From Candidatus Krumholzibacteriota bacterium (GTDB taxonomy: Bacteria > Krumholzibacteriota > Krumholzibacteriia > Krumholzibacteriales > Krumholzibacteriaceae), in contig JAUWCL010000011.1 of the NCBI GenBank assembly GCA_030609325.1, positions 25,001 through 77,554 on the forward strand: a stretch of DNA of 52,554 nucleotides, given 5' to 3'. The notes under the pieces are model-generated. The model made no database searches and was not told where the DNA came from. It worked only from the letters and a program-made list of their open reading frames with translations. Positions 34,304-39,929 of this stretch are shown here, one piece after another. The position numbers were made by a program, and so were the translations under genes. How positions within the stretch are numbered: the first letter of the stretch is position 1; each line of letters begins with the position of its first letter.

Positions 34304-34549
34304 ATGAAGACTGAAAAGATAAGTACGATGATCCGGCGGATCTCCGAGATGCTCGTTGACAAGCCGGACGCGATCAGGCTTTCAGAAGAGAACCGCGACG
34401 ATGCGATCATACTGGTGCTTTCCGTCGACAAGGCCGACGTTGGCAAGGTCATCGGAAGGAACGGACAGACCGCCAAGGCTCTCAGGGCCCTGGTGAACGC
34501 GGCCGCCACGAGAATGGGCGAGAAAGTGCTCCTGGAGATCCGCGAATAG
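34304..34549 (+). CDS. khpA: KH-domain RNA-binding protein KhpA (YlqC)
   Basis: An 81-aa single KH domain with the RNA-contacting GxxG loop in VGKVIGRNGQTAKALRAL. KhpA commonly sits between rpsP and rimM and is a global RNA chaperone linked to cell division in Gram-positives. It lies 10 nt before rimM. Confidence 0.93.
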   Translation: MKTEKISTMIRRISEMLVDKPDAIRLSEENRDDAIILVLSVDKADVGKVIGRNGQTAKALRALVNAAATRMGEKVLLEIRE

Positions 34550-37338: not shown

Positions 37339-37944
37339 TTGAATGGCAAGAAGTATATGCTTCCGGCTCTCTGCATGTTGCTTCTCGTATCGGGCTGCGG
37401 CGCATACAAGACTGTTGACAAGGATATTCCCATAGAGGAAATGGACGGGCTCAACGAGAAGTACGTCGGCCGTACGGCCTGGACCAGGGCACTGGTCGTT
37501 GATATCAAGCAGACCGGAATCATCGACCGCGGGACCGCGGTCGAGATAGTCGAGCTGGATCTCCACTGGGGGACCGCCGTCGGCGTCAGGGGCCCGAACA
37601 AGCGCAAGTACAGGCACGCTCTCAATCTCGACCGGCCGGTGACATCGGAGGCCTTCGAGGAGGCTATGGACAAGCTGTTCTGGTTCGACAAACCGGATAA
37701 GCGCTACAGAATGAACCTTCGCGAATACGGCAAGCGAACGGCGAGGGCGGTCAGGGACAACGAGCTCTTCAAGGGTATGCAGCGCGAGGCGGCGATCGAG
37801 TCGTGGGGATGGCCGGACGAGATGCTTTCCAACGATATCGGCAACGTGCTCGCCGAGCAGTGGATCTACAGGGATCCGAGACAGCGGACGAAGAAAAGCT
37901 ACATCTGGCTCATCGACGGTATCGTCGACAAATGGGAAGAATAG
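37339..37944 (+). CDS. Lipoprotein of unknown function with SmpA/BamE-like C-terminus
   Basis: A 201-aa protein. The signal peptide ends in a lipobox V17-S18-G19-C20 (LLLVSGCG). The C-terminal segment AIESWGWPDEML ... EQWIYRDP ... YIWLIDGIV has the G-x-P-D-x and WxY pattern of the SmpA/BamE-type small outer-membrane domain; this is inference from pattern only. The middle (37-160) matches no family I know. The start is TTG at 37339 with AAGGAGGAG upstream. It has its own promoter. A similar W-Y pattern appears in the small exported protein at 41623. Confidence 0.65.
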   Translation: MNGKKYMLPALCMLLLVSGCGAYKTVDKDIPIEEMDGLNEKYVGRTAWTRALVVDIKQTGIIDRGTAVEIVELDLHWGTAVGVRGPNKRKYRHALNLDRPVTSEAFEEAMDKLFWFDKPDKRYRMNLREYGKRTARAVRDNELFKGMQREAAIESWGWPDEMLSNDIGNVLAEQWIYRDPRQRTKKSYIWLIDGIVDKWEE

Positions 37945-37963: not shown

Positions 37964-37991
37964 AAAAAAGCCCCCGCCGAAACCGTGGGGG
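37964..37991 (-). terminator. Minus-strand intrinsic terminator
   Basis: On the minus strand CCCCCAC and GCGGGGG pair (one G-U) around a seven-base loop and are followed by C and TTTTTT. It faces leftward transcription and lies ~100 nt downstream of the consensus promoter at 38087-38115. Confidence 0.75.
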
Positions 37992-38080
37992 AGAATCATT
38001 CTGGATCAAACTCTTAATGAGTTGAGCCCGCGGATTTTTACTCCAAAATCATTCACCTCACCAATTCAGCAGGGACATCT
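37992..38080 (-). pseudogene. Remnant of an rRNA operon: leader plus first bases of 16S rRNA (possible orphan small RNA)
   Basis: Read leftward from the consensus promoter, ~65 nt of leader are followed by AAGAGTTTGATCC (38015 to 38003), the exact and nearly universal 5' end of bacterial 16S rRNA. AGAATGA (38002 to 37996) follows, which in 16S comes after six more bases (TGGCTC). Then the sequence passes directly into the terminator at 37964-37991. Everything from 16S base ~17 on, apart from AGAATGA, is missing. The unit would still give an RNA of about 115 nt. It lies behind the AGCS symporter gene on the same strand. What I see is the match and the promoter; that it was an rRNA operon is inference. 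Confidence 0.6.
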
Positions 38081-38086
38081 GTATAA

Positions 38087-38115
38087 ATTATATCCGGCAT
38101 GCGCAACTGTGTCAA
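38087..38115 (-). promoter_or_regulatory. Perfect consensus sigma-70 promoter, leftward
   Basis: On the minus strand TTGACA (38115-38110), exactly 17 nt, TATAAT (38092-38087), with an AT-rich stretch upstream that could act as an UP element. It is the strongest promoter in the window, yet no protein gene lies within reach; the start site would be near 38080. Confidence 0.85.
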
Positions 38116-38216: not shown

Positions 38217-39929
38217 TCATCGCCCGAACAGCTTCTTCTTGTATCTCTTGTGCGGCCTTGAGAAATAATCGACTGTCAGGCGCCTGACCACTCCCGACAG
38301 CGCGAACAGGGCTATGAGATTAGGGATGGCCATCATTCCGAGCGCAGTGTCGCCGAATCCCCACACTATCTCGAGTGAGAGGACGGTGGCGAGGAAATGC
38401 ACGATACAGAATACGAATCTGTAAGGCATGATGAACCGGCGCCCAAAGAGGTACTCTACCGATCTGTCGCCGTAGTACGACCACGATATAGCCGTCGATA
38501 TGGCGAAGAGGAACACGGCGATCGTTACGATGTAATTGCCGCCACCAGTGATCGGCGCGAGCCCGGTCTGGAACGCCCACGCGGTGAGCGGCGAGCCGTT
38601 CTGCATCATTGCGCCGGCGAGCCGTATGTCCGTTGAGGAGACTGCGTAGCCGAATTTGTCCATGAAGACAGCCGTACCGTCATCGCCGATCTCGCAGATC
38701 CCGTCGAAGGGTTCGTTTGAGCGCAGTACCACCGCGTCGTCTACGAAGCTGCCGTTTCGGACGAAGCTTGCCCCGGACGCCGCCCCGCGGGCTATCGGGA
38801 AGGTGCCTGTCTTGAGGTGCGAATCGTCTATGTGTCCGTTCACCCCGATCGAGGCAGACTCGACCAGTATCTTGATGTTGGACTGCCTGGTGAACGGAAC
38901 GGCCTCGGTCTTCTTCCCGTGCCACACGCCGACGGTGACTATGACCAGGCCGGTCAGCGTGCATATCAGGAGGGTGTCGATGTAGGGGCCCATCATCGCG
39001 ACGAGGCCCTCGCGGACCGGCTCGTCGGTCCTGGCCGCGGCATGGGCGATAGGCGCGCTTCCCTGTCCCGCCTCGTTGGAGAAGATCCCCCGCTTGACTC
39101 CCCATACCATCATGAACATAAAGGTCGACCCGAAGAATCCTCCGACCCCGGCCTTGGCGGTGAAGGCGTCGTTGAAGATCGTCATGATCGCCTGCGGTAT
39201 GCGGGGAGCGTTGAGAAACAGGACTGTTACAGCGCCGATGAAGTATATGATCGACATGAAGGGCACCAGTTTGCTCGTCACGCGTCCGATGCGCTTGATG
39301 CCGCCGATGATCACGAGAGCGACCAGAGAAGCGCTTACAGCGCCTGTTATCCAGGTCGGGATTCCGAAATCGCTCCTGAATGAGTCTGCGACGGTGAAGG
39401 ACTGGACGGCGTTCCCGCTGCCGAAGGAGGAGATCACCGCGCAGGCGGCGAAGATGATCGCGAGCCACTTCCAGTTCTTTCCCATCCCCTTCTCTATATA
39501 GTACATCGGCCCGCCCGAGACCGTCTCGTCCTCGTGGACCTCGCGGTAGTGGTTGCTCAGCGTGCACTCGGCGTACTTCGAGGCGCATCCGAAGATCGCC
39601 GTGACCCACATCCAGAAGAGCGCTCCCGGCCCGCCGTAGTGGATCGCCGTTGCCACTCCCGAGATGTTTCCGATGCCTATCGTTGCGGAAAGCGCCGCGG
39701 TGAGGGCCTGGAAGTGACTGATCTCCCCTGTGTCCTTCGGATCGTCGTAGTAACCCGCGATGATCGCCAGGCTGTGAGAGACCTTCCGGAGCTGGATCAC
39801 CCGGAGCCTCGTTGTCAGAAAGATACCCGTGCCGAGCAGGAGCACTATGAAGTAAGGAAGCACTTCGGGCCATTCCCATATATACTTGTATACAGAGTCG
39901 ATCACCCGCTTGATCGCGTCACTGTTCAT
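38217..39929 (-). CDS. Alanine/glycine:cation symporter (AGCS family) with a large soluble insertion
   Basis: A 570-aa transporter for sodium-coupled uptake of alanine or glycine. AGCS features: FQALTAALSATIGIGNISGVATAI, GGPGALFWMWVTAIFGCASKYAEC, SGGPMYYIEKGMGKNWK and FSNEAGQGSAPIAHAAA. About ten membrane helices are present. Between the helix ending VIVTVGVWHGKK and the next conserved segment (SPLTAWAFQTGL), about residues 335-446 form a hydrophilic, beta-rich insert not found in typical ~450-550-aa members. ATG 39929 has GGGAG upstream. Expressed leftward with the NSS transporter 33 nt upstream, so probably one amino-acid uptake operon. Confidence 0.9.
   Translation of the reverse strand: MNSDAIKRVIDSVYKYIWEWPEVLPYFIVLLLGTGIFLTTRLRVIQLRKVSHSLAIIAGYYDDPKDTGEISHFQALTAALSATIGIGNISGVATAIHYGGPGALFWMWVTAIFGCASKYAECTLSNHYREVHEDETVSGGPMYYIEKGMGKNWKWLAIIFAACAVISSFGSGNAVQSFTVADSFRSDFGIPTWITGAVSASLVALVIIGGIKRIGRVTSKLVPFMSIIYFIGAVTVLFLNAPRIPQAIMTIFNDAFTAKAGVGGFFGSTFMFMMVWGVKRGIFSNEAGQGSAPIAHAAARTDEPVREGLVAMMGPYIDTLLICTLTGLVIVTVGVWHGKKTEAVPFTRQSNIKILVESASIGVNGHIDDSHLKTGTFPIARGAASGASFVRNGSFVDDAVVLRSNEPFDGICEIGDDGTAVFMDKFGYAVSSTDIRLAGAMMQNGSPLTAWAFQTGLAPITGGGNYIVTIAVFLFAISTAISWSYYGDRSVEYLFGRRFIMPYRFVFCIVHFLATVLSLEIVWGFGDTALGMMAIPNLIALFALSGVVRRLTVDYFSRPHKRYKKKLFGR

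Follow-up and report, generated by a model that had tools for sequence, protein, structure and literature searches.

The window analyzed here is a stretch of 52,554 nt (contig C24:25001–77554) from a 2.63-Mb genome in 56 contigs (G000). It opens within the 3′ end of a 23S rRNA gene, followed by the 5S gene (positions 1–769), and further on carries an rpsP-khpA-rimM-trmD-rplS-rnhB-yraN cluster whose final member is a lipoprotein gene; a KhpA-type KH-domain gene lies within the rpsP-rimM-trmD-rplS part of it (34304–34549, plus strand). Facing the lipoprotein gene, on the minus strand, is a small transcription unit that we call RNA1, with a sodium:alanine symporter gene upstream of it (Table 1). 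Direct reading confirmed the perfect TTGACA-17-TATAAT promoter reported in the initial annotation. A scan with spacings of 15–19 nt found a perfect sigma70 promoter in the window at this site only. Judging from the position of the −10 hexamer, transcription is predicted to start at about position 38080. The 13-mer AAGAGTTTGATCC, identical to the start of 16S rRNA, is present about 65 nt past this start as described, with AGAATGA next and then the intrinsic terminator, whose G+C stem runs as far as C37970, with six T residues directly after it.

Table 1. Features of the RNA1 locus, in window coordinates.
Feature	Position	Strand	Remarks
Convergent lipoprotein gene	37339..37944	+	Adjoins RNA1 in 25/25 genomes
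RNA1 gene, ~115-nt rod-shaped small RNA	37964..38080	-	Conserved in 25/25 genomes, with covariation; start inferred from the −10 hexamer; ends in T6
Terminator U tract	37964..37969	-	Read directly; U tract also in relatives
P1 3′ strand UUCGGCGGGGGC	37970..37981	-	Doubles as 3′ arm of the intrinsic terminator
Middle stem, 3′ side	37985..37996	-	From pairing/covariation alignment
P2 3′ strand UCCAGAAU	37998..38005	-	Overlaps the end of the 16S-like stretch
16S-like 13-mer AAGAGTTTGATCC	38003..38015	-	Covers the P3 3′ strand, a linker and the first bases of the P2 3′ strand
P3 apical hairpin ACUC-AUUAA-GAGU	38010..38022	-	3/4 pairs change on both sides in relatives
Partner-pairing segment UCCGCGGGCUCAAC, apical bulge	38021..38034	-	Contains near-invariant CGCGGGCUC; 14-bp perfect complement of RNA2 (G000:C25:27702-27715)
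P2 5′ strand AUUUUGGA	38042..38049	-	Pairs with 37998-38005
Middle stem, 5′ side (GUG + GGUGAAU)	38051..38061	-	Pairs with 37985-37996
P1 5′ strand GUCCCUGCUGAA	38065..38076	-	Pairs with 37970-37981; conserved G-U wobbles
−10 hexamer TATAAT	38087..38092	-	17-nt spacer after −35; TATAAT or TATACT in relatives
−35 hexamer TTGACA	38110..38115	-	Read directly
Sodium:alanine symporter gene (AGCS), upstream of RNA1	38217..39929	-	Neighbor in some relatives only

We investigated the distribution of this unit among related genomes. A search of relatives for the same promoter-terminator unit, as the initial annotation had proposed, was successful in every examined genome of the order: the 196-bp stretch had a counterpart in all 25, including those of the family sister to the window's own, with 69–95% identity, and a covariance model of RNA1 retrieved one full copy per genome (25/25). 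TTGACA was kept in all relatives with a parsed promoter, with a 17-nt spacer throughout, and the terminator, the rod of stems and the small apical hairpin were likewise kept. The same model found no confident match in 55 further genomes of the class. Three weak matches (in G032, G038 and G067) were set apart from the confident ones; those in G032 and G038 were rejected as terminator-like stretches or short repeats without a promoter, and that in G067 spans about 37 nt. In a pattern scan of named genomes, the carriers belonged to Candidatus Krumholzibacteriota/Krumholzibacteriia, some of them deposited as Latescibacterota or UBP1, and 19 pattern-only matches, mostly from Clostridia, failed the RNA1 covariance model.

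At all 25 loci, RNA1 is convergent with the same gene for a lipoprotein of about 200 aa and lies 19–216 nt from its stop codon. Because the next downstream gene is convergent in every case, RNA1 is not a riboswitch or leader. The lipoprotein gene, which has no Pfam match, also occurs in families f3, f7 and f8, where RNA1 was not found; in f7, a family of the same class, a synteny check confirmed that the gene is present and RNA1 absent.

The initial annotation had interpreted the unit as an rRNA operon collapsed from near the 16S start to its terminator, or as an rRNA-derived promoter reused for a small RNA of about 115 nt. The 13-base identity and the adjoining AGAATGA in the window's species favor such an origin, but the gene is intact and syntenic in 25 of 25 genomes, nearly all of which lack the identity. 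As it is also single-copy in each, neither a recent deletion nor the misassembly that had been feared accounts for it. Additionally, RNA1 showed no match to SSU rRNA at E ≤ 10. The exact 13-mer occurs once, and chance alone would give 1.16 matches if two mismatches are allowed. Among the 25 genomes it was found in only two, the window's own and its nearest relative (L002); other relatives have, for example, AAGAGTTTCTTCC, TAGAGTTTGCTCC, GTGAGTTTGATCC or AAGAGATGTGTCCC at the site. Since this stretch varies while its base pairing is preserved, the most plausible view is that the resemblance to 16S arose by coincidence in this lineage. The claim that the arrangement exceeds chance applies to the whole unit, which is conserved in 25/25 genomes and folds 4.2 standard deviations better than shuffles, and not to the unconserved 13-mer. 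A resemblance of AAAUCCGCGGGCUCAAC to helix 21 of 16S rRNA was set aside, because the complementary half of that helix is absent. The suggested growth-rate control similar to that of rRNA is unsupported as well: stringently controlled rRNA promoters, as known from Escherichia coli, have G+C-rich discriminators, whereas the bases between the −10 hexamer of RNA1 and its start are A+T-rich in the relatives. A strong promoter driving a small RNA is thus what remains of the earlier interpretation, and we consider an rRNA origin, by deletion or by reuse of a promoter-leader unit, extremely improbable.

The RNA1 strand folds with a predicted energy of −46.3 kcal/mol (z = −4.2 against shuffles). MAFFT/RNAalifold alone gave a poor consensus for RNA1, and a model-guided alignment was needed. 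In this alignment (n = 25), 92.6% of the cells were paired, compared with 44–51% when the partner strand was slid, and 17 of the 32 pairs had changed on both sides, amounting to 64 such cells versus 22.5 in shuffles. Helix 2, which comprises the middle stem and P2, accounted for 11 of these doubly changed pairs. Within P1, a U-G pair was kept in 25/25 genomes and would become A-C on the opposite strand, which indicates that the minus strand is the RNA strand. This bears on another explanation, that the element serves the convergent lipoprotein operon as a bidirectional terminator or as part of its 3′ UTR and is no RNA gene. Its constant position beyond the lipoprotein stop codon would suit that role; however, besides the conserved wobbles, both promoter and U tract are conserved on the minus strand, and in many relatives a separate lipoprotein terminator lies in between, making this explanation very improbable. 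From these comparative patterns, RNA1 is almost certainly a real conserved RNA gene. It is an undescribed small RNA of about 115 nt common to all examined genomes of one order of uncultured Krumholzibacteriota.

No match to RNA1 was found among 4227 Rfam families, either in the window's genome or in relatives. As a long rod-like hairpin behind a housekeeping-type promoter, RNA1 resembles 6S RNA (RF00013), but it is shorter and does not fit the model, and the genome has a separate 6S RNA (G000:C55). Bacterial small SRP RNA (RF00169) was rejected in the same way: RNA1 did not match the model, and the genome's own copy is at G000:C28. A literature search found no paper combining Krumholzibacteri and sRNA. 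With its own predicted promoter and terminator, RNA1 has the makeup of a trans-acting small RNA.

The sole strongly conserved unpaired stretch of RNA1 is the bulge CGCGGGCUC before the apical hairpin. We searched eight genomes of the family for its reverse complement, TGAGCCCGCGG. Besides the RNA1 gene, one orthologous site recurred, in six of the eight genomes. Homology at this site starts at the complement and spans about 175 nt to an intrinsic terminator, defining a second noncoding RNA, RNA2, which in the window's genome lies outside the window (G000:C25:27687-27858; L182). RNA2 forms three hairpins and has a C-rich loop; 95.7% of its cells were paired, compared with 35–63% in slid controls, and 75 cells had changed on both sides. 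Its covariance model detected RNA2 in 24 of the 25 genomes of the order, the one without a detected copy being G007 (a 93% complete assembly), and gave no match in the 55 other genomes of the class. RNA2 likewise matched none of the 4227 Rfam families. RNA1 and RNA2 each represent a new RNA family, of a general type that is already known.

In the window's genome, RNA2 is flanked by genes for pyruvate kinase and for a citrate lyase-type enzyme. A role as riboswitch or leader was rejected, because the gene that follows RNA2 is oriented the other way in six other genomes. Where the upstream sequence is readable, nearly all copies are preceded by TGGCAY-N5-TTGAT, which resembles a sigma54 −24/−12 promoter, and rpoN is present in all 25 genomes of the order. 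Since the −12 element is mostly TTGAT (GA for GC) and not the canonical TTGCW, sigma54 dependence of RNA2 can only be guessed at. Separately, in L171 and L168, DNA identity between genera stays high beyond the terminator of RNA2, in the direction of the citrate lyase gene, about 200–300 nt downstream of RNA2; this exceeds the expectation for a spacer and possibly reflects another RNA or a leader.

Comparison of the two RNAs across the order indicated that the apical bulge of RNA1, (Y)CGCGGGCUC(A), shows complementarity to a bulge and stem in the 5′ hairpin of RNA2, and that the two segments have coevolved. RNA1 thereby shows the conserved complementarity to an sRNA encoded elsewhere that is expected of a sponge or anti-sRNA. 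An uninterrupted Watson–Crick duplex of 12–16 bp is possible in 23 of 24 genomes, whereas shuffled RNA2 sequences gave a mean of about 7 bp and a maximum of 11 bp with RNA1. In the window's species, the predicted duplex joins UCCGCGGGCUCAAC (38034-38021) to GUUGAGCCCGCGGA. Nine core positions of the duplex are paired in 23–24 of the 24 genomes. Intermolecular position −2 is occupied by A-U in 16 genomes and by U-A in the other eight, so that pairing is kept in 24/24; on the lipoprotein tree this position needs three changes, two of them forced by well-supported branches. At position −1, the pair is C-G in 18 genomes and U-A in the five genomes of family f2, where the duplex is extended to GAAUCGCGGGCUCA in most members and RNA2 changes to match. 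The clean compensation is carried mostly by these two columns.

Native RNA1–RNA2 pairs averaged 12.96 bp versus 11.0 bp for random re-pairing among genomes, and none of 20,000 re-pairings equaled the native mean, although this permutation keeps no relatedness; the tree count is hence the better guard against shared ancestry. Additionally, the CGCGR part of RNA2 is a bulge without a partner inside RNA2, so that RNA1 offers the best explanation for its conservation. G012 (C44, C70) was the exception, a genome in which both partner segments have drifted and the duplex is reduced to 7 bp with both genes kept; it is the only genome in which the complementary motif is lost in RNA1 (CGCGGGCUGU) and in RNA2 (GAGCCAGUAG) alike. 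Taken as comparative evidence, these patterns suggest that RNA1 very probably pairs with RNA2.

As to the consequences of this pairing, RNA1 would act as a stand-alone trans-acting sRNA made from a consensus sigma70 promoter, with the 3′ arm of its terminator closing the rod. Pairing may start where the two exposed bulges meet and then spread to 12–16 bp, opening the outer helix of the first hairpin of RNA2, which would subsequently be sequestered, titrated, destabilized, degraded or inactivated. C-rich loops occur in sRNAs that bind Shine–Dalgarno regions, and the C-rich loop of RNA2 would suit such regions of mRNAs. Together with the sigma54-like promoter, this loop makes RNA2 probably a conditional mRNA-acting sRNA, and RNA1 could then be a constantly made sponge that sets a threshold for RNA2 action. 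The promoter of RNA1 looks constitutive and that of RNA2 activator-dependent, and only RNA2 has a conserved extra unpaired motif, which makes the role of sponge more likely for RNA1 and that of regulator for RNA2. We infer both that RNA2 has mRNAs as its targets and that the effect of RNA1 on RNA2 is inhibitory, not activating. Most likely, RNA1 is the dedicated base-pairing partner of RNA2, and probably its sponge. The best explanation overall, to which we assign a probability of roughly 0.7, is that a trans-acting RNA1 pairs with and restrains RNA2; restraint as the net role of RNA1, considered by itself, appears fairly probable.

Two other assignments of roles must be weighed. One strand of the outer helix of RNA2 (99% of cells paired), GAGCC, belongs to the segment that pairs with RNA1, so that a full duplex must open this helix. 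RNA1 might therefore be a trigger that opens the first hairpin of RNA2 (GAGCC:GGCUC), makes the C-rich loop or the strand lying behind that loop accessible and switches RNA2 on. This is unlikely, as the inner GGGG:CCCC helix of RNA2 can stay closed. In a broader form, the two RNAs would make up an obligate two-RNA circuit, with a sigma70 and a sigma54-like gene at separate loci whose products have coevolved base by base, and RNA1 would remodel RNA2 as a structural trigger instead of being a passive sponge; we regard this as doubtful, but if true, carbon metabolism under sigma54 control would be coupled to a basal housekeeping signal. Conversely, RNA1 itself could be the principal regulator, acting on other mRNAs or on proteins, with RNA2 as its sigma54-controlled antagonist. 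The stronger, constitutive-looking promoter of RNA1 fits this arrangement, as does the CGCGG bulge that in the upper clade lies shortly before a CUCUU...AAGAG-type hairpin in RNA1 and RNA2 alike and could be a shared protein-binding site besides its role in pairing. Yet RNA1 lacks a second conserved unpaired stretch, in contrast to RNA2 with its conserved C-rich loop, and we consider this reversal of roles quite unlikely. The KhpA-type protein encoded in the window is a possible candidate helper for the RNA1/RNA2 pair.

The proposed restraint of RNA2 by RNA1 can be compared with known systems. GlmY and GlmZ are likewise two interplaying sRNAs, and a sigma54 promoter is involved in their case. 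In Escherichia coli, GlmY is a protein decoy for RapZ and does not pair with GlmZ (PMC7073468), unlike the pairing predicted between RNA1 and its partner RNA. By action, the closest analogs of RNA1–RNA2 appear to be RosA–RoxS and CrfA–SisA-D. RosA of Bacillus subtilis is a stand-alone sRNA that titrates RoxS, a C-rich sRNA of central metabolism (PMC8216469). As proposed for RNA1 and RNA2, in this system (with RsaI/RsaE in Staphylococcus) a G-rich stretch pairs with a separate sRNA that has C-rich regions, and the partner is tied to central carbon metabolism, as RNA2 is by its setting. The differences are that RosA relies on G-rich repeats to bind C-rich regions in its partners, whereas RNA1 uses one bulge and a segment of RNA2 apart from the C-rich loop, and that RNA1 keeps to a single partner throughout an entire order, with compensatory changes between the two molecules; there is no Rfam relation between them. 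CrfA of Caulobacter crescentus is a starvation-induced sponge of four partners, SisA-D (PMC12559287). Inactivation of a partner by sRNA–sRNA pairing is what we propose for RNA1, but RNA1 differs in its consensus promoter and in having a single known partner.

Contacts between sRNAs usually come to light only through cross-linking or ligation experiments on a handful of model species, and, to our knowledge, evolutionary evidence of the present type is rare for them. Compensatory changes between separate RNA molecules constitute direct evolutionary evidence of pairing. The steps followed here, from an invariant unpaired motif through a search for its complement to a conserved RNA, may offer a testable computational way to find the partners of sRNAs in uncultured bacteria. 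For the poorly known phylum Krumholzibacteriota, the results add two unrecorded structured RNA families, each of which helps explain the other.
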